64,000 nt of DNA from Orbaceae bacterium BiB (GTDB lineage: Bacteria > Pseudomonadota > Gammaproteobacteria > Enterobacterales > Orbaceae): contig CP133958.1 of assembly GCA_036251205.1 (NCBI GenBank), positions 1,302,001 through 1,366,000 of the forward strand, read 5' to 3'. Under the pieces are notes generated by a model. It was not told the DNA's origin. It saw only the letters and a program-made list of their open reading frames with translations, and searched no databases. The position numbers and the translations under genes are program-made. Positions 1,034 through 59,457 of this stretch are shown piece after piece. How positions within the stretch are numbered: the first letter of the stretch is position 1; each line of letters begins with the position of its first letter.

Positions 1034-1921
1034 ATGACAAACCATTTATTTGATGTTTTACACGAACAATATACCAAGCGAGTTAATCATTCATTAGCCC
1101 AATCCTTAGTTATGATTGAGCCTTCTTTACTAAAAGAAGCAATGGAATATAGTCTACTCGCTGGTGGTAAACGTATCCGTCCTTTTTTAGTTTATGCAGC
1201 GGGATCAATGTTTAGCTGTGAACTTGAAAAACTTGATGCCCCAGCTGCTGCAATTGAAGCTATTCACACTTACTCCCTAATTCATGATGATTTACCCGCC
1301 ATGGATAACGATGACTTAAGACGAGGCTTGCCAACCTGTCATATTAAATTTAATGAAGCTACAGCAATTTTAGCCGGTGATGCCTTACAAACTTATGCAT
1401 TTTCTTTAATTAGTGATGCGCCAATGCTATCTGATTCATGTAAAATATCGATGATCAAAGAGTTGGCTAAAGCGAGTGGGATTCAAGGTATGTGTTTAGG
1501 TCAACAATTAGATCTACAATCAGAGCACCACACTATCTCGCTCGAAGAGCTAAAATGGATCCATAAAAATAAAACGGGTGCCTTGATTAAAGCAGCAATT
1601 CTGCTCGGTTTATTTGCCGCTGGCGACGAAGCAAAACAATACCAACAAGATCTTATGTTATTTGCCGATTGCATTGGACTTGCTTTCCAAATTCAAGATG
1701 ATGTATTAGATGTGATTGGTGATAAAAATGTCATGGGTAAAAATAATGGTGCAGATCAGCAGTTAGAAAAAAATACTTATACATCACTCATCGGTGTAGA
1801 ACAATCGATACAAACTTGTCAGCATCTTTACAAGCAAGCTATCGAAGCATTAGATAAAATACCTTATAATAGCGAAGCATTACGACAATTAGCTGATTTT
1901 ATTATCACACGAAATAATTGA
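1034..1921 (+). CDS. ispA: Farnesyl diphosphate synthase
   Basis: Makes geranyl and then farnesyl diphosphate from DMAPP and IPP, feeding undecaprenyl phosphate and quinone side chains. The 295 residues carry the family hallmarks: GGKRIRP at 44-50, the first aspartate-rich motif DDLPAMDNDD at 85-94 and the second, DDVLD, at 222-226. These bind the magnesium-diphosphate groups. It sits between xseB and dxs as in E. coli, and dxs supplies the first committed metabolite of the same pathway. The ribosome site is weak, consistent with translational coupling to xseB. Confidence 0.96.
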   Translation: MTNHLFDVLHEQYTKRVNHSLAQSLVMIEPSLLKEAMEYSLLAGGKRIRPFLVYAAGSMFSCELEKLDAPAAAIEAIHTYSLIHDDLPAMDNDDLRRGLPTCHIKFNEATAILAGDALQTYAFSLISDAPMLSDSCKISMIKELAKASGIQGMCLGQQLDLQSEHHTISLEELKWIHKNKTGALIKAAILLGLFAAGDEAKQYQQDLMLFADCIGLAFQIQDDVLDVIGDKNVMGKNNGADQQLEKNTYTSLIGVEQSIQTCQHLYKQAIEALDKIPYNSEALRQLADFIITRNN

Positions 1922-1957
1922 TTACTTTGTCATACACTAGGATCTTAAAATAGCAAA

Positions 1958-3814
1958 ATGAACCTTGATAACTATCCTTTACTCAAACAGATTAACTATC
2001 CTCAGGATTTGCGTCTATATCGACAAAATCAGCTACTGCAAATTAGTGATGAGTTAAGACGCTTTCTATTAAACAGCGTAAGCCGTTCAAGTGGACATTT
2101 AGCATCTGGATTAGGCGTTATTGAGCTGACCGTGGCTCTACATTATGTTTATAATACACCGTTTGATCAACTAATCTGGGATGTTGGTCATCAAGCTTAT
2201 CCACATAAAATATTAACGGGTAGGCGTGATCAAATGCTATCGATTCGGCAAAAAGATGGCTTACACCCTTTCCCATGGCGAGAAGAGAGTGAATACGATA
2301 TATTAAGTACCGGCCACTCTTCAACCTCAATTAGTGCCGCACTAGGTATTGCGGTTGCAGAGCAACAAAAGCAATCTAACCGTAAAGTTGCTTGTGTGAT
2401 TGGTGATGGCGCTCTGACTGCGGGTATGGCTTTTGAAGCGATGAATCATGCAGGTCATTTAAAACCGGATATGCTAGTTATTATCAATGATAACGACATG
2501 TCTATCTCTGAAAATGTTGGGGGGCTCAATCAGCATCTCGCACAAATATTATCCAGCCGAACCTATGCAACCTTAAGAGAAGGTGGCAAAAAAGTATTTG
2601 CAGGTATTCCACCTGTGAAAGAGTTTTTGAAAAAAACTGAAGAGCATATTAAAGGGCTAATGACCCCCGCTATTTTATTTGAAGAACTTGGCTTTAATTA
2701 TATTGGCCCAATTGATGGACATGATATTGATAATTTAGTTAATACGCTAAGTAAAGTTCGTCAATTAAAAGGTCCACAACTTTTACATGTTGTAACCCAG
2801 AAAGGTAAAGGTTATGCCCCTGCAGAAAAAAATCCTATTTTGTGGCATGGCGTCCCTAAATTCGACCCATCAGCAGGTGTAATTACTAAACAGCCGAGTA
2901 ATAACCCAACCTATTCGCAGATATTTGGTGACTGGCTATGTGAAATGGCTGAACACGATAAACAACTGGTTGCTATAACACCCGCAATGAGTGAAGGTTC
3001 AGGGATGACTAAATTTGCAAAATGCTACCCTGAGCAATTTTTTGATGTTGCAATTGCCGAACAACATGCTGTAACTTTCGCTGCAGGTCTCGCCATTAGT
3101 GGCAGAAAACCAGTTATCGCGATCTATTCAACATTTTTACAGCGAGCTTATGATCAAGTCATTCATGATATTGCCATCCAAAATTTATCAGTATTATTTG
3201 CCATCGATCGAGCAGGAATAGTTGGGCAAGATGGTCCTACTCATCAAGGGGCTTTTGATATTAGTTATTTACGTTGTATCCCTAATTTAGTTATTATGGC
3301 ACCAAGTAGTAACATCGAGTGTCGAAATATGCTCTATACTGGCTATCACTATCAAGGACCAGCCCTAGTACGCTACCCAAGAGGAGAGACTAGAAGTGAG
3401 CAGGCTCAACCTATGCAAGCAATTGAGATAGGAAAAAGCAAACAAATTCGACAAGGTAAAGATATTGCTATATTGAATTTTGGTTCGCTACTCGATGAAG
3501 CACTAAAATCGGCCGAAGAACTTGATGCAACCGTCATTGATATGCGTTTTATTAAGCCATTAGATGAGGAAGCTATTTTACAAGCAGTACAAAACTATGC
3601 AACGATTGTCACATTGGAAGAAAATGCAGTACAAGGTGGCGCAGGTAGTGCCGTAAATGAATTTATTTTGTCGAAAAAACTCAAGTGTGATATTTTGAAC
3701 ATCGGTTTGCCTGATATATTTATTCCACAAGGTACACAAGCTGAAATTCGTCACGATATTGGTTTAAGTGCAGACAAGTTAACAGAAAAAATTACAAATT
3801 TTATCAATCAATAG
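1958..3814 (+). CDS. dxs: 1-deoxy-D-xylulose-5-phosphate synthase
   Basis: Thiamine-diphosphate enzyme that condenses pyruvate and glyceraldehyde 3-phosphate to DXP, the entry to the MEP isoprenoid pathway and a thiamine precursor. 618 residues (E. coli 620). The ThDP/Mg motif starts with GDGALTAG and ends in INDNDMSIS around residues 148-182; [10 protein letters not shown] and the catalytic-Glu region [13 protein letters not shown] are present in the C-terminal half. Because this genome carries PdxST further on, DXP is probably not needed for vitamin B6 here, unlike in E. coli (inference). Confidence 0.97.
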
Positions 3815-3821
3815 GTTAATT

Positions 3822-4118
3822 ATGAGTACACAAGTTGTTAATATTCATGTTTTTGGTAGAGCACTTAAGCTCTCTTGCCCCGTTGATGAAATCGATGCGC
3901 TAAATTTGGCAGCCAAAGATCTTGATGATCGTTTAAACGAATTGCGTCGAAAAACACAAATAATGAACAGCGATCAACTGATCATCACAGCTGCGCTGAA
4001 TATCTCCTATGAACTTGTCAAAGAGAAGCAAAAAAGTGATAAGTTAGGTAGTGAATTTAATGAACGATTAAAAACACTACAACAGTTATTAGATCATGCG
4101 TTAAATTTCGCCAAATAG
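3822..4118 (+). CDS. zapA: Cell division protein ZapA
   Basis: Cytoplasmic FtsZ-binding protein that cross-links and stabilises the Z-ring. 98 residues, slightly shorter than E. coli (109). The N-terminal domain (VNIHVFGRALKLSCP, then LNLAAKDLDDRLNELR) and the C-terminal coiled coil are both recognisable. Seven bases separate it from dxs. The order zapA, 6S RNA, fau is the conserved gammaproteobacterial arrangement, which supports the assignment. Confidence 0.9.
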   Translation: MSTQVVNIHVFGRALKLSCPVDEIDALNLAAKDLDDRLNELRRKTQIMNSDQLIITAALNISYELVKEKQKSDKLGSEFNERLKTLQQLLDHALNFAK

Positions 4119-4183
4119 TGATCTACATTGTAAAAATAATATAAATGGTATTGTTTCATTAAATAAATTTTGTATTATGGTAG

Positions 4184-4367
4184 ACATCTCTGAGATGTTC
4201 GCGAACGGGTCAGTCCCCTGAGCCGATAATCTTAACGATAGAGCGGATGTGGTTATTACTCGGTGTGTATGCCTTTTTGTTAAGGAAACCTAAAGAGTAA
4301 ACGCATTGCTCACCTTGAACTTCGGGTTCAAGGGTTACAACCCGTAACGGCATCTTGGAGCTCTATC
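4184..4367 (+). ncRNA. ssrS: 6S RNA
   Basis: Regulatory RNA that mimics an open promoter and sequesters sigma-70 RNA polymerase in stationary phase. The 5' part (CTCTGAGATGTTCGC, then GGGTCAGTCCCCTGAGCCGAT) and the 3' part (CACCTTGAACTTCGGGTTCA, then GGGTTACA and GGCATCTTGGAG) match the E. coli 6S closing stem and conserved flanks; the central bubble diverges. It lies between zapA and fau, its usual place. Ends are set by pairing of CATCTCTGAGATG-side and CATCTTGGAG-side strands and are good to a few bases. Confidence 0.93.
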
Positions 4368-4379
4368 TTAATTGTACTG

Positions 4380-4961
4380 ATGATATCTATGCAAAAATTA
4401 TCTTCATTAACAACATCTCAAATTCGCACTCAGGTTAGAACTTTTCGTAGAGAATTATCTCATCAACAACGCATCCAAGAACAACAGATTATTTATCAGA
4501 AAATAGCTCAACATTCAGCAGTATCAGCGGCTAATAATATTGCTATTTTTCTCTCTTTTGATGGTGAATTAGAGACTAAACCTATTATTGAATACTTATG
4601 GCAACAGCAAAAATCAGTATTCATCCCAATTATCCACCCATTTAATAAGAAATATCTACTTTTCGTCCGTTATCAAGCGACAACACAATTAACCCGTAAT
4701 AAATTTGGTATATTACAACCTAAGCTAAATATTGCTGATGTGATACCTCATCACAAATTAGATGTTATATTTACCCCATTAGTCGCCTTTGATGAACGTA
4801 ATTATCGTATCGGTATGGGTGGGGGTTATTATGATCGCATGTTAGCTGACTATCAAAAACATAATATTTACCCGATCGGATTGGCTTTTAATTGTCAAAA
4901 AATCCCGCATATTACCAATCAACCTTGGGACGTTCAGCTACCTGAAATTATTACCGGCTAA
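4380..4961 (+). CDS. fau: 5-formyltetrahydrofolate cyclo-ligase
   Basis: Converts 5-formyl-THF to 5,10-methenyl-THF using ATP, recovering a folate that would otherwise accumulate. Up to 193 residues. The phosphate-binding glycine loop GMGGGYYDRM sits near residue 150, and FLSFDGELET plus the basic N-terminal helix are family features. It directly follows 6S RNA and is probably on the same precursor transcript as in E. coli (ygfA). Two starts are possible, ATG at 4380 or ATG at 4389; neither has a good ribosome site. Confidence 0.9.
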   Translation: MISMQKLSSLTTSQIRTQVRTFRRELSHQQRIQEQQIIYQKIAQHSAVSAANNIAIFLSFDGELETKPIIEYLWQQQKSVFIPIIHPFNKKYLLFVRYQATTQLTRNKFGILQPKLNIADVIPHHKLDVIFTPLVAFDERNYRIGMGGGYYDRMLADYQKHNIYPIGLAFNCQKIPHITNQPWDVQLPEIITG

Positions 4962-4973
4962 TGCTAATTTAAG

Positions 4974-5002
4974 TTGCGATAACCCTAATTAAGGGCTATA
5001 AT
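4974..5002 (+). promoter_or_regulatory. Sigma-70 promoter of rplY
   Basis: TTGCGA at 4974-4979 and a perfect TATAAT at 4997-5002 are separated by 17 bases, the optimal spacing. Transcription would start near 5009, giving a leader of about 75 bases before rplY. Seen in the sequence; activity is inferred. Confidence 0.75.
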
Positions 5003-5004
5003 CC

Positions 5005-5062
5005 CCCAGCCTTATAAGGCTATGACTTTTAGTCAATTGCTGGGTCGCCTGTGATTGACACT
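5005..5062 (+). promoter_or_regulatory. Structured rplY mRNA leader (candidate L25 autoregulatory site)
   Basis: Two hairpins lie side by side: CCT-TATA-AGG (5011-5020, extendable to GCC/GGC) and TGACT-TTT-AGTCA (about 5022-5034). They are enclosed by CCCAGC (5005-5010) and GCTGGG (5039-5044), giving a potential three-way junction. L25 binds 5S rRNA, itself a three-way junction, and rplY of gammaproteobacteria is reported to be autoregulated through its leader. Caution: the predicted start near 5009 would remove most of the outer stem's 5' strand. Confidence 0.5.
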
Positions 5063-5084
5063 TATTTAACAAAAGAGAGAAATT

Positions 5085-5369
5085 ATGTTTACATTAAATG
5101 CAGAAGCAAGAAAAGAGCAGGGAAAGAGTGCGAGCCGCCGCCTGCGTCACGCGGGTAAATTCCCAGCAATTATTTATGGTGGAGAGCAAGAACCAGTTGC
5201 TGTTGTTCTTGATCATAACCAAGTTTTCAATATGCAAGAAAAAACAGAGTTCTACTCTGAAGTTTTAACTATTGCAGTTGATGGCAAAGAAATTAAAGTT
5301 AAAATTCAAGCCGTACAACGTCACGCATTCAAACCTAAATTATTACACATGGATTTTGTAAGAGCGTAA
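5085..5369 (+). CDS. rplY: 50S ribosomal protein L25 (short form)
   Basis: Binds 5S rRNA in the large ribosomal subunit. The 94 residues correspond to the short enterobacterial form without the C-terminal CTC extension. The typical N-terminus [20 protein letters not shown] and the end [15 protein letters not shown] are both present. The ribosome site AAAGAGAG is well placed. It is a single-gene unit with its own promoter, a folded leader and a strong hairpin 10 bases after the stop codon. Confidence 0.96.
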
Positions 5370-5378
5370 TTGTATGTT

Positions 5379-5410
5379 GATGCTCGATACAATCGAGCAT
5401 CTTGGTTAAT
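5379..5410 (+). terminator. Hairpin terminator of rplY
   Basis: A 10-bp perfect stem, GATGCTCGAT (5379-5388) with ATCGAGCATC (5392-5401), and a 3-base loop just after rplY, followed by the weakly U-rich TTGGTTAAT. The stem is strong, the tail is poor, so termination may rely on the next element. Confidence 0.6.
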
Positions 5411-5465
5411 ATGTACCCCCGAAAGCAAGCATTAGTGCTTCACTTTTGAGTGGTACATTTTTTTT
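5411..5465 (+). terminator. Branched (three-way) structure ending in a U8 tract
   Basis: ATGTACC (5411-5417) pairs with GGTACAT (5452/3-5458) and runs straight into eight T. Inside the closing stem are two small hairpins: AAGCA-TTAG-TGCTT (5427-5440) and CACT-TTTG-AGTG (5441-5452). A terminator with a branched rather than simple stem is uncommon; it may be a second rplY terminator or the 3' end of a small RNA. Confidence 0.5.
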
Positions 5466-5782
5466 GCAAAAAATTAGTGAATGATAAATATCATTGGTCT
5501 AACAATTATTCAGCAGATATCGGTTTGCCAACAACAGTTGCCTATTATTTAAATAAAGAGAAATAACTGGATCTTTCTTGTTAAACTATGATAATAGTTA
5601 AGGAATTGTACTGAACTAATTTTAGTCTCAGCAGTCAACAGAATAACTGATTACCCTAGACTAAAATATTTGCATACAATTTAATTGCTAATTTATATTT
5701 TTACTCTACTTATCAATTTTAGGTTGTCATGGCTATAACCGAAATCAATTGATTTACTTATTTAACGATGTAGGAGAATAAT
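5466..5782 (+). other. Intergenic region upstream of zwf
   Basis: No convincing gene. It contains the palindrome ATGAT-AAAT-ATCAT at 5481-5494, a weak FNR-like site sharing its core with the perfect site at 38854. It also holds an open 29-codon stretch (5477-5566, GTG start, no ribosome site) whose composition looks protein-like but which I cannot identify; it could be a gene remnant. The zwf promoter must lie in 5600-5760; the zwf ribosome site TAGGAGAA is at 5771-5778. Confidence 0.4.
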
Positions 5783-7255
5783 ATGTCCCCTGATAATTTG
5801 GACATTCCAGCATGTGATTTGGTTATTTTTGGTGCAAAAGGTGATTTAACCAGACGAAAATTACTACCGTCTTTATACCAATTAGAAAAATATGGCCATT
5901 TACCACAAGAGACAAGAATATTAGGTGTCGGTCGTGCAGATTGGGACAAAAATGCTTTTGCTGAAGTCGCTAAAGATGCACTGACAACATTTATGTCAGA
6001 TCCAATTGAAGATTCTGTTTGGCTACGCTTTTGTGAAAAATTGGATTTCCATAAGCTAGATGTCAACGATACACCGGCTTTTGATGGACTCGCTAAAGAA
6101 TTAAGCCAAACAAAACCTGCAATTTTTTATTTTGCTATGCATCCAGGTACTTTTGGTACCATTTGCCAAGGTCTTGCTCATGCGGGATTAAATCAAAGCA
6201 AAAACCGTATCGTCATGGAAAAACCACTCGGTACAGACTTACAGTCATCCCAAGATATTAATAATGCTGTTGCAGAATATTTTACTGAGTCACAAGTGTA
6301 TCGTATTGACCACTACTTAGGTAAAGAAACTGTTCTTAACTTATTAGCATTACGCTTTGCTAACCCTATTTTCTCAACGCTTTGGGATCGTAACTCTATT
6401 GATCATGTACAGATTACCGTTGCAGAGCAAGTCGGTATTGAAGGCCGCTGGAGCTATTTTGATAAAGCAGGCCAAATGAGAGATATGGTACAGAACCACT
6501 TATTGCAAATATTGACCATGATTGCAATGTCACCACCCGCTAATTTGCAAGATGATAGTATTCGCCAAGAAAAAATTACTGTTTTAAAAGCGCTTCGCCC
6601 AATTACCAAGGCTAATTTTCGTGAAAAAACAGTACGAGGCCAATACACAGCAGGGTTTGTTAATAGTATAAAAGTGCCTGGTTATTTAGAAGAAGATGGC
6701 GCCAATAAAACCAGTAATACTGAAACATTTATAGCAATCAAAGTTGATATTGATAACTGGCGTTGGGCTGGCGTACCGTTTTATTTAAGAACAGGTAAAC
6801 GTTTACCGAATAAATGTTCTGAAGTTGTAATCTATTTTAAAAATCAACCACTGAACCTATTTAGTGACTCTTATCCACAATTACCACAAAATAAACTGAC
6901 TATCCGTTTACAGCCAGATGAAGGGGTAGATATTGAGATCCTAAATAAAGTTCCTGGTCTTGAAAGTAATAATAACTTACAAATGACCAAATTAGATCTT
7001 AGTTTCAGCAAAACGTTTCATCAACATATTGCTGATGCTTATGAACGATTATTACTTGAAGTAATGCGTGGCCGTCAGGCACTGTTTGTCCATCGAGATG
7101 AAGTTGAAGCCGCTTGGGGCTGGGTTGACTCAATATTAGATGCATGGTCTAACGAAAATGATCCACCAAAACCGTACCAAGCAGGAACTTGGGGACCTGT
7201 AGCGTCTGTTGCATTGATCACTAAAGATAATCGCTCTTGGAATGAATTTGAATAA
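5783..7255 (+). CDS. zwf: Glucose-6-phosphate 1-dehydrogenase
   Basis: First enzyme of the oxidative pentose phosphate pathway: oxidises glucose 6-phosphate to 6-phosphogluconolactone and makes NADPH. 490 residues (E. coli 491). The dinucleotide-binding turn GAKGDLTRRKLLP is at 17-29, EKPLG at 146-150 and the substrate/catalytic motif RIDHYLGKE at 174-182. ATG at 5783 follows TAGGAGAATA. pgl follows after 9 bases, so the two consecutive steps are co-transcribed. Confidence 0.97.
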   Translation: MSPDNLDIPACDLVIFGAKGDLTRRKLLPSLYQLEKYGHLPQETRILGVGRADWDKNAFAEVAKDALTTFMSDPIEDSVWLRFCEKLDFHKLDVNDTPAFDGLAKELSQTKPAIFYFAMHPGTFGTICQGLAHAGLNQSKNRIVMEKPLGTDLQSSQDINNAVAEYFTESQVYRIDHYLGKETVLNLLALRFANPIFSTLWDRNSIDHVQITVAEQVGIEGRWSYFDKAGQMRDMVQNHLLQILTMIAMSPPANLQDDSIRQEKITVLKALRPITKANFREKTVRGQYTAGFVNSIKVPGYLEEDGANKTSNTETFIAIKVDIDNWRWAGVPFYLRTGKRLPNKCSEVVIYFKNQPLNLFSDSYPQLPQNKLTIRLQPDEGVDIEILNKVPGLESNNNLQMTKLDLSFSKTFHQHIADAYERLLLEVMRGRQALFVHRDEVEAAWGWVDSILDAWSNENDPPKPYQAGTWGPVASVALITKDNRSWNEFE

Positions 7256-55066: not shown

Positions 55067-55095
55067 TTGATATTGATAATAATTTTCATTATTAT
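55067..55095 (+). promoter_or_regulatory. Promoter overlapped by a Fur-like box
   Basis: TTGATA (55067-55072), 17 bases, TATTAT (55090-55095). Lying over the spacer and -10 is GATAATAATTTTCATTATT (55075-55093), which matches the 19-base Fur consensus at 15 positions. Repression by iron-loaded Fur is the natural reading. It is 32 bases upstream of the FmdE-like gene. Confidence 0.7.
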
Positions 55096-55126
55096 TACTA
55101 AAATTAATTAGCTATTGTAAATTTAC

Positions 55127-55678
55127 ATGAATTCATTACTAATCCCTTCTGCTCAATGGATTGAGCCCTATTTAGATATTGCGGATGGAAAAGATCTGTT
55201 TCGCTTCCATATTCAAGATGCCTTTAACTACCATGGTTATGATGCAGTTGGTGGAGTTGTATTAGGTTTTAGGCTACTGCAGCGTTTAAGCTATCAATTT
55301 AATACTGATAGAAAACCGCTACAAAGACGTGAAATTGGACTCTTTACCGCTTTTCCTGGATTAGGTGCACGTGATTGTTTTGAACTTATTACAAGAATGG
55401 TCACTGATCAGCGCATTACTGTCGATACTGAGTTTTCCGATACAACTGCACAACCTGGCATTTATGGTCGTTTCTATTTTCAATTCAGTTACCAAGGTCA
55501 AAAATTAGCCCTTGCTCCTATTGAAGGCTATCCTGGAGCACATTTTTTAAAAATTGGCTTAGCAAGTAAACAACAAAATGTCACGGCTCACACGATGCAA
55601 CAATGGCAAAAAGCGAAATGTGATTTAGCCAATACATTGTTATCAAATCGTACCGAGGATGTTATCCGAATCCTATGA
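55127..55678 (+). CDS. FmdE-like protein A of an ABC-transporter operon
   Basis: 183 residues, no signal peptide, so cytoplasmic. It is not a characterised family to my knowledge. HG at 36-37 followed by GGVVLGFRLLQRL resembles the HGHxCPGxxLGxRxA start of FmdE domains; FTAFPGLGARDCFELI (73-88) and GRFYFQFSYQGQKLAL (114-129) fit the next conserved blocks. The FmdE Cys after HG is absent. It is homologous to the last gene of the operon (FPGxGxxDCxE shared). Its stop overlaps the permease start (ATGA). Possible role: binding or processing the imported compound or metal complex. Confidence 0.6.
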   Translation: MNSLLIPSAQWIEPYLDIADGKDLFRFHIQDAFNYHGYDAVGGVVLGFRLLQRLSYQFNTDRKPLQRREIGLFTAFPGLGARDCFELITRMVTDQRITVDTEFSDTTAQPGIYGRFYFQFSYQGQKLALAPIEGYPGAHFLKIGLASKQQNVTAHTMQQWQKAKCDLANTLLSNRTEDVIRIL

Positions 55679-56433
55679 GTCGCTTGTTTCAACTGCTATT
55701 AACACCTGTATTAATTGTCATCTATTGGCAAATATTATCGAGCTCAGGCTTAATATCGCCTTACCTATTACCGACGCCGTTAAAAGTTTGGCAAGCGGCG
55801 ATTAATATGTTTGAAACAGGCGTTTTACAAAAACATATTATTGTCTCATTAATCAGAGTCCTTAGTGGTTTTGCATTAAGTTGTTTACTCGGCGTGATTC
55901 TCGCAGGATTCGTCAGCTCAAGTATCTGGATAGAGAGATTATTATCAGCTCCAATCACCTTATTAAGAATGATCCCACCATTAGCGATGGTGCCTTTATT
56001 GATTTTATGGTTAGGCATAGGCAATGAAACCCAGTTAACAATTATTATTCTGGCATCTATATTCCCGATCTTTTTGAATACTCGAGATGGTTTAAAACGA
56101 GTTGATGCAACACAAAAAGAGCTAGCTAAAAGTTTAAATTTATCACCGATACGCTATGTTTTTGCTATTGTTATACCCAATGCGATCCCCTCTTTTGTGA
56201 CCGGTTTTAGGTTAGCTTTTGGCTACAGCTGGCGAGCTTTAGTTGGGGCCGAGTTAATTGCAGCAAGTAGTGGACTTGGCTACTTAATTGTTGATGCACA
56301 AGAGATGCTAAGAACCGATGAAGTGATTGTCGGGATATTAACTATTGGCATCTTAGGATGGATGCTTGATTCACTAATCAATATTTTATCGAAAAAATTA
56401 TTAGCTCATCGTTTTCCAGAGGTCGCTAACTAA
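55675..56433 (+). CDS. ABC transporter permease (NitT/TauT, SsuC-like)
   Basis: 252 residues, about six membrane helices. The conserved cytoplasmic EAA-like loop reads ELAKSLNLSPIRYVFAIVIPNA, and LLRMIPPLAMVPLLILWLGIGN is the family signature of sulfonate/taurine/nitrate/thiamine-precursor permeases. Start overlaps the preceding gene by 4 bases and its stop shares a base with the ATPase start (TAATG), so the whole unit is translationally coupled. Confidence 0.92.
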   Translation: MSRLFQLLLTPVLIVIYWQILSSSGLISPYLLPTPLKVWQAAINMFETGVLQKHIIVSLIRVLSGFALSCLLGVILAGFVSSSIWIERLLSAPITLLRMIPPLAMVPLLILWLGIGNETQLTIIILASIFPIFLNTRDGLKRVDATQKELAKSLNLSPIRYVFAIVIPNAIPSFVTGFRLAFGYSWRALVGAELIAASSGLGYLIVDAQEMLRTDEVIVGILTIGILGWMLDSLINILSKKLLAHRFPEVAN

Positions 56434-57110
56434 TGATTAGATTGAATAATATTCGGAAAAGCTACCACAATAAACTGGTGCTAAATAATATTAATTTGAA
56501 TCTTAACAGAGGTGAGATAGTCTGTTTACTTGGTCGTTCTGGTTGTGGAAAATCAACCTTACTAAGAATTATTGCAGGCTTAATCCTATCTGACTCAGGT
56601 TCAATTAATGTACAACAAAAACAATGTGCCATGGTTTTTCAGGAGCCGCGTTTATTACCATGGTTATCTGTTGCTGAAAATTTAAAACTTGCTTTACCAT
56701 TTTGGCTCAGCAGACAAAAAAAAATGGATAAAATCGTTCAAAAACTTACAGAAGTACAGCTTCCTGATTGTGCTAATCTTATGCCGAGAGAACTTTCTGG
56801 AGGAATGGCTCAACGAGTTGGTATAGCCAGGGCATTACTAAAACAACCAGATATATTATTACTTGATGAACCTTTTGCTGCATTAGATGCATTAACCCGA
56901 AGTGATTTGCAACAAGCACTAAAGCACCTAATTAAGCAGCAAAATAAAACCTGCTTATTCGTTACTCATGATATCGATGAAGCACTCCTGATTGGCGAAC
57001 GTATTATTGTGATGCAAGAGGGGAAACTTGAAGTTGAACATTATACGGCACAACATAGCGATTTAAACAATTTAAAACAACAAATTACACAACAACTTCA
57101 CTATTCATAA
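56433..57110 (+). CDS. ABC transporter ATPase (SsuB-like)
   Basis: 225 residues. Walker A LLGRSGCGKST at about 32-42, Q-loop VFQEPRLLPW, signature ELSGGMAQRVGIARA, Walker B ILLLDEPFAALD and H-loop THDIDEA. The LSGGM(A/R)QRV variant and RLLPW loop are typical of the NitT/TauT import group. Energises the permease encoded just before it. Confidence 0.94.
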   Translation: MIRLNNIRKSYHNKLVLNNINLNLNRGEIVCLLGRSGCGKSTLLRIIAGLILSDSGSINVQQKQCAMVFQEPRLLPWLSVAENLKLALPFWLSRQKKMDKIVQKLTEVQLPDCANLMPRELSGGMAQRVGIARALLKQPDILLLDEPFAALDALTRSDLQQALKHLIKQQNKTCLFVTHDIDEALLIGERIIVMQEGKLEVEHYTAQHSDLNNLKQQITQQLHYS

Positions 57111-57122
57111 TCGGAGTTATTT

Positions 57123-58067
57123 ATGAAAAACTATTTAAAATTAGCAACTATTGCTGCACTCTTTTTTACCACTACCGTGTATGCAAATGACGATATAATC
57201 AATATTAGCTATGTAAAATCACCACTAAATATGCAAATGATTGTAATGAAAGAGAAACATTTGTTAGAAGATAATGCCGCCAAAGAAGGATTATCGATAA
57301 AATGGCACGAAATAAACTCAGGGGCAAAACAAGCACAAGCTTTATCTAGTGGTGATCTTGATTTTGGTGGAGTAATGAATACAACCTCCGTACTAATGGC
57401 AAATGGTGTTGGTAGCCCAATTAAAATTATTGCGGGTGTTTCTAGACCCCGCGATGTATACGCTATAGTGTCACCTAAAAATGGTATAACATCACTCAGT
57501 GAACTTAAAGGTAAAACAATTGCTGGGCCTAAAGGAACCGTTCTATACCAAACTTTAGTTGCCGCACTTGTTAAAAACAATATGACTATTAATGATGTTA
57601 ACTTCCTACAGATGGAATTACCTCAAGCATTTTCAGCACTGCAATCAGGACGAGTTGATGCCGCACTACTCGCAGCAAATATGATGATAAAAGCAGAAGA
57701 GGAAGGAGGCAAAGTATTAACAACTGCGAGCGGTTTAACTTCACCATTACTAGTGATGACATCTACCGATAAAGTGATTAAAGCACACCCAGAGTGGGTT
57801 GAACTAGTCATCAATACTCATGATGAAGCAGCTAAATGGATTGAAGCCAACCCGCAACAAGCCATCGAATTAGCAGCTAATGTGCAAGGTATTTCAATTG
57901 AAGACGCACAAAAACTCTATGATTGGTCGCATTTCACTCAACGTTTAAACCAACAGGATATCAAAGATATGTATTCTGAAATGGATTTTATGTTAGAAAA
58001 TGACATGATGCGTAATAAAATTTATGTTGAAGATATTATTTTACCTATCGCATTGGAGAATGAGTAA
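57123..58067 (+). CDS. Periplasmic substrate-binding protein (NrtA/SsuA/TauA-like)
   Basis: 314 residues with signal peptide [21 protein letters not shown]. Two-lobed binding protein: [66 protein letters not shown] and [17 protein letters not shown] are the usual blocks of NMT1/SsuA-like proteins, which bind small organic anions, pyrimidines or sulfonates. Ligand not predictable. Follows the ATPase by 12 bases. Confidence 0.88.
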
Positions 58068-58597
58068 TGACTGAATTATCCGTTATCGTTAGCGATCAAG
58101 ATGGTGATATTGAAATAACCCGAGAAGATCTATTAAAGTATGCCACTAAAGCGAATGTTATTGCTGCAGCATTGATGATTCGCGTAAGCCATTATGCATT
58201 CTCATTACTTTCACCAACCACACCTGTTATAAGACGGAAACTTTATTGGACATTAGGTTTTCCTGGTCCAGGTATTCTAGATTGTGTAGAGATGTTAAGT
58301 CATGCCGTTCGCGAAGGTCGCTGCTTACAAAAACCAACACTAGAAAATCCTGATGCACCACTTTCAGTACTTGGACAATTTCTATTTGAAATTAGCTATG
58401 AAGGTAAAACATTACAACTTTGGCCTGATAAAACTATTTTTGATGACGAATTCCGCACACAGGTATCTAAATGGCAAGATGCAGAGCCAAATACGCCTGA
58501 ACATAATGCATATTTGCAATATAAGGACAACAAAGTCAAAACCATTATGTCATTAAGTAATGATGTACTCTTTCATCTGCGATGGATTAAAAAGTAG
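58067..58597 (+). CDS. FmdE-like protein B, paralogue of the operon's first gene
   Basis: 176 residues, cytoplasmic. Shares with protein A the block [13 protein letters not shown] (65-77), the preceding RRKLYWTLG, and [16 protein letters not shown] (103-118). The HG pair at the start of the FmdE-like domain is lost ([15 protein letters not shown] in its place), so A and B have diverged; they may form a heterodimer, as FmdE-type domains often dimerise (inference). Start shares a base with the binding-protein stop. Function unknown. Confidence 0.6.
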
Positions 58598-58677: not shown

Positions 58678-59457
58678 CTAAACGATAGTTGCGACAATAA
58701 TATTTTCAGGATTTATATAGATACTCAGCGGAGAACCATGCTCGATTGTTAATTGTTTAAAATCTTCAATTGCACGAGAAGCATAGATATTAATTCCAGA
58801 CGCTAAAGATAACGTCAACTCTCCCCAATGTTTACTACGAACAAAACTATCGACATGAGTCAGATAATGGTTACAATCAGCATGATCAAGTAGCTCGATT
58901 TGTGGCGCCTTAACGAATAATATCACTTCTTTACCAATCATTAGATTAAGACGTTCAATACTTGAATGCGTAATGTAGGCTGTCATTTCAGTCTGTTTAT
59001 CTTGCAACAATACAGTAATAAATCCAGCGACCTCATTAATATTAATCGATGTAATTACACCATAAAACTGATTTCTAGCACTCGATTGTAAGGAAACTTT
59101 AGCAGCAACTTTAAGAATATCATTGAGCGGAAGCGTTTCATCACTTAGAATATTAAATGCATTCGTTTGCATTTTAGTTAGTAGATCATACATCTCAACA
59201 AAACGTATTCCGTATGGACTTAATGTCGCGCCGCCACCACCCTTGCCACCAGTTAATGTTTGAACGAATGGTTTTTCAGATAATGTATTGATATCATTAA
59301 TTGCATCCCAAGCCGACTTATAGCTAATACCAATAGAGCGGGCGGCTTGGCTTAAACTCCCCATTTGATAAATCGCTTTTAATAATGTAATACGCTTAGC
59401 ATCAGCAAATAGCTGATTATTAATTTTTAAGGTTAATAAGATATCTGTATTTAGCAT
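58678..59457 (-). CDS. modE: Molybdate-responsive regulator ModE
   Basis: DNA-binding sensor of molybdate that represses modABC and can activate molybdoenzyme genes. 259 residues (E. coli 262). Winged helix with GSLSQAARSIGISYKSAWDA at about 33-52 and the loop GGKGGGG at 70-76; two Mop domains follow (SARNQFYGVITSI… with the molybdate-binding SARN, and AHSPL-equivalent IYASRAIE region). E. coli has modE beside modABC; here it is about 47 kb away, behind a secreted-protein gene (16-base gap). Confidence 0.96.
   Translation of the reverse strand: MLNTDILLTLKINNQLFADAKRITLLKAIYQMGSLSQAARSIGISYKSAWDAINDINTLSEKPFVQTLTGGKGGGGATLSPYGIRFVEMYDLLTKMQTNAFNILSDETLPLNDILKVAAKVSLQSSARNQFYGVITSININEVAGFITVLLQDKQTEMTAYITHSSIERLNLMIGKEVILFVKAPQIELLDHADCNHYLTHVDSFVRSKHWGELTLSLASGINIYASRAIEDFKQLTIEHGSPLSIYINPENIIVATIV

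Follow-up and report, generated by a model that had tools for sequence, protein, structure and literature searches.

A five-gene cassette around a NitT/TauT-type importer

The window analysed here, a 64-kb stretch of contig CP133958.1 of Orbaceae bacterium BiB, contains a plus-strand cassette of five genes in which two paralogues, named A and B, flank the genes of an ATP-binding cassette (ABC) importer. Gene A (55127-55678) encodes a 183-amino acid (aa) FmdE-fold protein that keeps His36, the other three FmdE metal ligands being replaced. It is followed by a NitT/TauT-type ABC permease gene (55675-56433), an ABC ATPase gene (56433-57110), the gene of a substrate-binding protein (SBP) of the SsuA/NMT1 family (57123-58067) and gene B (58067-58597), which encodes a 176-aa paralogue of A that lacks the His-Gly motif. 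A and the permease gene overlap by ATGA, the permease and ATPase genes and the SBP gene and B are joined by TAATG, and a 12-base gap separates the ATPase and SBP genes. The modE gene (58678-59457, minus strand) is convergent to the cassette. A Fur-like site (55072-55090, strand not assigned), which ends 36 bases 5' of the start codon of A, agrees with 16 of the 18 positions of AATGATAATNATTATCATT, the Fur consensus used for site scoring. These open reading frame coordinates agree with the first-pass annotation, which had described an operon of five genes with overlaps or tiny gaps and a convergent modE. Overall, the observations in that annotation were confirmed, and its interpretation was supported only in part.

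The presence of a NitT/TauT importer between A and B was corroborated by profile matches. The permease matched PF00528 (101.1 bits) and the ATPase PF00005 (120.1 bits), whereas the SBP matched PF09084 (75.2 bits) and reached 170.6 bits against TIGR01728 (cut-off 163.5), which places it in SsuA_fam. This sulfonate label covers a broad subfamily and does not identify a substrate. The best NCBIfam models for the permease were SsuC, SaoP and TauC, and the nearest solved sequences for the SBP (3e4r, 6ssy, 2x26 and 3uif) are named nitrate, taurine or sulfonate binders. None of the named Ssu models reached its cut-off (SsuC, 171.2 bits against an equivalog cut-off of 347; sulfonate ATPase, 181.5 against 395; PRK11553 SBP model, 78 against 299), and the same was true of the Tau equivalogs (taurine SBP, 66.7 against 304.25 bits; TauC, 128.1 against 342 bits). 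Identification of the importer as a known taurine, sulfonate or nitrate equivalog was rejected because the listed cut-offs were missed. The cassette resembles SsuABC and TauABC in that its permease, ATPase and SBP belong to the same superfamily, with the SBP over the SsuA_fam cut-off, but it differs from them in missing the SsuC, TauC and taurine SBP equivalog cut-offs and in lacking an SsuDE or TauD gene, carrying FmdE-fold genes and a Fur-like site instead.

The first-pass annotation had proposed a neighbourhood search for the A/B pair with SsuABC-like genes, and the full order A-permease-ATPase-SBP-B was found in five further organisms, which indicates that the gene order is not due to chance. 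These are Escherichia coli plasmids (L006; six PLSDB records by tblastn), Budvicia (L024), an Enterobacteriaceae metagenome-assembled genome (MAG; L025), Leminorella (L026) and Ca. Avidesulfovibrio (L027). Using blastn, 5 of 5,426 complete E. coli genomes were positive, all on plasmids and with 65% of the query covered. Identities of the five orthologous cassettes to the window were 52-60% for A, 60-70% for the permease, 53-60% for the ATPase, 55-64% for the SBP and 53-69% for B. Azospirillum carries a permease-ATPase-SBP-B version with no adjoining A, its SBP being 46% identical. In a tree of 75 rows, B and the Azospirillum sequence formed one group (100/99) and A and the Vibrio genes another (99/98), although long branches make these joins unsure. 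The cassette is rare. Counting this genome in each case, two of 99 relatives had A and one of the 274 genomes examined from the class had B; a 12-row profile matched in 4 of the 398 genomes from the phylum, and the SBP was detected once among 252 (E up to 1e-40) and once among 398 (E up to 1e-35). Beside the MAG cassette, and convergent to it, there is an ABC operon that was read by eye as 2-aminoethylphosphonate-type (L025:9929-14150). The gene run just 5' of the Leminorella cassette (L026:3334-7842) was read by eye as a molybdopterin oxidoreductase similar to one encoded elsewhere in the Orbaceae genome (at L122, see below).

Relationship of A and B to the FmdE family

A and B are homologous, as the first-pass annotation had proposed from shared motifs. 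BLASTP aligned them with E = 1e-12 (31% over 95 residues), and a profile-profile comparison in which the rows of each were kept separate gave a probability of 99.5 (E = 1.6e-22). The shared motifs were confirmed, that of A reading FPGLGARDCFE. The claim that the HG pair is kept in A and lost in B also stood, since A has His-Gly at 36-37 and B has Ala-Thr at that place.

By structure comparison, the core domain of A has the FmdE (PF02663) fold, and a profile of the A family (50 rows, 45 A-like and 5 B) matched a profile of 13 PF02663 matches with a probability of 97.0 (E 9.8e-11) over 157 columns. Both results uphold the earlier description of A as FmdE-like. The B rows alone matched the PF02663 profile weakly (probability 20.3, E 1.1e-3), and B would have an FmdE-type fold by its homology to A. 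Neither protein matched any Pfam family at E up to 1 or any NCBIfam model directly, and direct comparisons with Pfam, NCBIfam and PDB sequences gave nothing useful; the 12-row profile yielded only a chance PDB match. PF02663 searched straight against this genome gave no matches, neither A nor B reached its curated cut-off, and a relative (L011) scored 22.2 bits against 22.9. Among the 50 aligned members, PF02663 matched 8 at E up to 0.1 (best 3.5e-4), and the unrelated PF03633 matched 6 (best 0.0032). Therefore, the FmdE-like nature of the pair is not demonstrable from the sequences of A and B alone, and becomes visible only through relatives, profiles and the fold.

In the profile alignment, the FmdE ligands His15, His17, Cys19 and Cys55 map to His36, Tyr38, Ala40 and Gly80 of A, and none of the four is present in B. 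Compared with the FmdE family (2glz, 3d00 and 2gvi; PMC2954224), A therefore differs by the replacement of His17, Cys19 and Cys55 and B by that of all four; A and B also differ by the lack of a zinc finger, the presence of two paralogues per operon and the association with a NitT/TauT-type importer. Solved FmdE structures have been available since 2006-2008, according to their release dates, and no established function was found for FmdE proteins. Section 3.7 of PMC2954224 stated in 2010 that the majority of PF02663 genes adjoin metal-ion transporter genes.

The Fur-like site and the genomic company of related genes

The site upstream of A is the sole one with at least 15 matches in the window. 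In the 2.9-Mb genome, which has two FUR-family genes, nine sites with at most two mismatches were found, versus three for the reversed control pattern. Of the other eight, L119 and L122 are considered below. L120 adjoins the genes of a P19-type Fe2+ transport protein and an FTR1 permease, L121 that of a ZnuA-family binding protein, and L123 that of a TonB receptor located behind an ABC ATPase; L124 and L125 fall within a single region, next to a TonB receptor and a radical SAM gene, and L127 is beside tonB. Six of the eight other sites (five of the seven regions) thus stand beside such genes and point to metal uptake, a company that backs the Fur-like promoter noted in the first-pass annotation. 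By sequence, the cassette thus shares a Fur-like promoter site with iron genes of this genome, which would make it part of a putative Fur regulon. The upstream block containing the site is alignable among the orthologues, and in 2,000 shuffles in the GATAAT register the observed best was reached in 0.2% for the window and 3.4% for Budvicia.

Relatives of the SBP were retrieved from nine PLSDB records at E up to 1e-30, six from E. coli, one from Azospirillum and two without A or B. In the Chelatococcus and Rhizobium loci of SBP relatives, no A or B was found in a 15-kb stretch. The importer of Chelatococcus CO-6 (SBP 39% and permease 43% identity) lies near genes annotated as hemin SBP, hemP and TonB hemoglobin/transferrin/lactoferrin receptor, and that of Rhizobium ACO-34A (SBP 37-38%) lies 3' of an ABC operon of the iron type and of a gene whose product has siderophore-interacting domains. 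The Chelatococcus importer is followed by U1 (46%) and U2 (39%), a pair otherwise found with FecBCD and A-like genes. U1 and U2, which are working labels and not family names, designate two unassigned proteins of about 200 aa that accompany three importer types (L011:5750-6981, L017:5750-6954 and L136:8093-9114) and are fused in some Rhizobiaceae; the best Pfam hint was DUF4159 (E 0.018, U1 of L017). The pair bridges NitT and FecBCD systems, which favours a common substrate class.

A genome scan driven by one peptide pattern, TAFPG[RPL]G[AGT][RQ]D, which covers loci with an A-like gene, gave 77 stretches and 70 confirmed loci. By a scripted rule that looked up to 5.5 kb from the A-like gene for an importer of the NitT, FecBCD or Dpp type, 43 of the 70 loci had one, or 42 of 56 when the 14 Vibrio loci are set aside. 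U1/U2-like genes were present in 31 of the 70 and carbon-phosphorus (C-P) lyase genes in 10, also by scripted rule, and TonB receptors were close to the A-like loci in methanotrophs and a few others. This company indicates that one family of small proteins occurs together with three importer architectures that are unrelated to each other, which agrees with the 2010 remark on PF02663 genes (PMC2954224). Operons that combine a FecBCD-type importer with U1, U2 and an A-like gene (L010, L011, L045, L053 and others) are like the cassette in having an accessory A-like gene, and their U1/U2 pair also occurs 3' of the NitT relative in Chelatococcus; they differ in their unrelated ABC architecture, in the TonB receptor near some of them and in having one A-like gene (L010, L011, L045 and L053).

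Other neighbours of A-like genes were recorded. In a Sulfuritalea MAG (L045:1335-4774, by Pfam) and, by eye only, in Flavonifractor plautii (L042:134-2564), genes similar to nifH and to nitrogenase component 1 are close to an A-like gene and an importer of the FecBCD type. In Rhizobiales replicons and a Proteus plasmid, an A-like gene is directly 5' of the C-P lyase genes phnGHIJKL, in most cases with a FecBCD-type importer before it (L008, L009, L013, L014, L046, L047, L049-L051, L056, L057, L065, L066 and L070). These loci may encode an importer of a phosphonate-linked chelate.

Cargo of the importer and roles of A and B

The conserved gene order, the FmdE-type fold of A, the A-B homology, the company of the Fur-like sites and the two SBP relatives in iron loci are results of computation. 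We infer from them, with a probability of roughly one half, an importer under Fur control that brings in a small iron-linked compound, on which A and B act in the cytoplasm. An ABC importer built on the NitT/TauT (sulfonate) scaffold and controlled by Fur would take up the compound, which would most probably be an iron chelate or the chelator itself, of a size that passes porins. A and B, perhaps as one mixed dimer, would then receive or process it in the cytoplasm by metal release, ligand shielding or a first modification of the ligand. A wider claim, which we put forward tentatively and regard as somewhat doubtful, is that of a new importer class: a sulfonate-type ABC system under Fur whose acceptor is a mixed A/B dimer that lacks a metal site and binds the chelate or the freed ligand, and whose accessory set (A-like, U1 and U2) is exchanged among three unrelated ABC architectures. 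If the substrate were indeed an iron chelate, a new type of substrate would be added to the sulfonate importer superfamily, and some of the 'SsuABC' annotations would have to be revisited. In the cassette, which occurs both on plasmids and on a chromosome, two diverged FmdE-fold copies are tied to a small importer preceded by a Fur-like site, and this makes the role of an FmdE-fold protein for an importer testable in a five-gene unit.

Several results weigh against the iron-linked model. NitT/TauT binding proteins of known ligand take sulfonates, taurine or nitrate. No cysteine occupies the Cys19 or Cys55 position in any of the 50 family rows, so that metal binding as in FmdE is unlikely for the A/B family. 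The excess of Fur-like sites disappears at three mismatches (39 sites versus 36 for the control). The only perfect match in the genome (L119, G000:C1:1857627-1857645) is flanked by the converging 3' ends of an obg-like gene (by eye) and a small unassigned gene, and is therefore no obvious promoter, and another site (L122, G000:C1:531665-531683) is 5' of the molybdopterin oxidoreductase. Taking the best match within 200 bases upstream, the orthologue sites are weaker, with 15 of 18 positions for Leminorella, 14 for Budvicia, 13 for the MAG and 12 for the E. coli plasmid. For the four orthologues other than Budvicia, of which L027 was covered by only a short piece of upstream DNA, 7 to 31% of the shuffles in the GATAAT register equalled the observed best; given these rates, only the site of the window is strong by itself. 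The scripted rule found no importer in 13 of the 14 Vibrio loci (L028-L041), where the A-like gene stands alone, or in 14 of the 56 others, several of these on short contigs (L046, L058 and L074); at L091, FecE- and FecB-like matches on the opposite strand were overlooked by the rule. Finally, the Chelatococcus and Rhizobium loci lie near catechol/protocatechuate catabolism, which would also suit an organic substrate. These neighbours, a lead from two loci, may hint at a catecholate cargo or may be there by chance.

An importer of an organic anion (a sulfonate, a taurine-like compound or an aromatic acid) whose expression follows iron has to be weighed as well, with A and B as enzymes or carriers for the organic molecule, unrelated to metal. 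This alternative, which we consider unlikely, draws on the SBP score over the SsuA_fam cut-off and the names of its solved relatives, on the loss of the FmdE metal site, and on the catechol/protocatechuate genes near two SBP relatives, one of which is also beside a luciferase-like monooxygenase. A parallel exists in Clostridioides difficile, where the SsuABC-type operon ssuA2B2C2 rises under low iron, an effect called indirect by the authors, who found no Fur site (PMC6311696); the fourth gene listed there is iron hydrogenase-like, not FmdE-like. However, the operon studied here contains no sulfonatase or desulfonation gene, the listed Ssu and Tau equivalog cut-offs were missed widely, and the company of the A-like family consists of FecBCD, TonB and Dpp importers.

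Uptake of another transition metal (nickel, molybdenum or zinc) as a chelate appears quite improbable, although some loci would suit it. One distant A-like gene lies between hypE and hypA, hypD, hypB and the gene of a nickel-type permease being close by (L115 in G570, 1411-5993, by eye), and a Paracoccaceae plasmid (L017:1-8125) has a nikA/dppB-annotated importer, a HupE/UreJ protein, U1, U2, an A-like gene and DUF2478 in one run. The FmdE structure 2glz bound mixed zinc and nickel, according to the account of that structure in PMC2954224. Against this stand the company of the Fur-like promoter (NikR-like sites were not part of the search), the absence of a nickel or molybdenum enzyme from the operon and the modE neighbour, which looks incidental. 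In the same-genus genome G001, pgm, the gene of a 275-aa protein, modE and the gene of a 468-aa protein follow one another directly and the operon is absent from among them, which means that the operon was either gained here or lost in G001; no modE match was found in G002 and G003. The convergent modE, taken in the first-pass annotation, together with the Fur-like promoter, as a hint of a metal or metal-cofactor theme, was not borne out by this arrangement, in which modE and the 468-aa gene are side by side without the operon, and a ModE/molybdenum theme as a link to the cassette was rejected on the same ground, that is, on one genome.

That A and B are regulatory or assembly subunits of the importer rather than substrate handlers has very little chance of being right: they flank the transporter genes, B occurs without an adjoining A in Azospirillum and related accessory proteins accompany three unrelated importer classes, but the Vibrio A-like genes have no importer near them in 13 of 14 loci and one subunit shared by three unrelated ABC architectures would be odd.

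Regarding precedents for the proposed iron-linked importer, the first-pass annotation had called the system undescribed. This holds for the layout, which was not found in literature searches, but not for the association of PF02663 genes with metal-ion transporters described in 2010 (PMC2954224), so that FmdE-fold proteins beside metal importers are already known. No paper on FmdE-like genes with a NitT/TauT importer was found in the literature searches at the level of titles and the starts of abstracts. The combination of a NitT/TauT scaffold, two paralogues without a metal site and a Fur-like site, plasmid-borne too, did not come up in these searches. One candidate that combined the words 'fmdE' and 'siderophore' (PMC10308882) was set aside as an irrelevant use of the name, since fmdEFGH designates a formate dehydrogenase of Pseudomonas putida in that paper.

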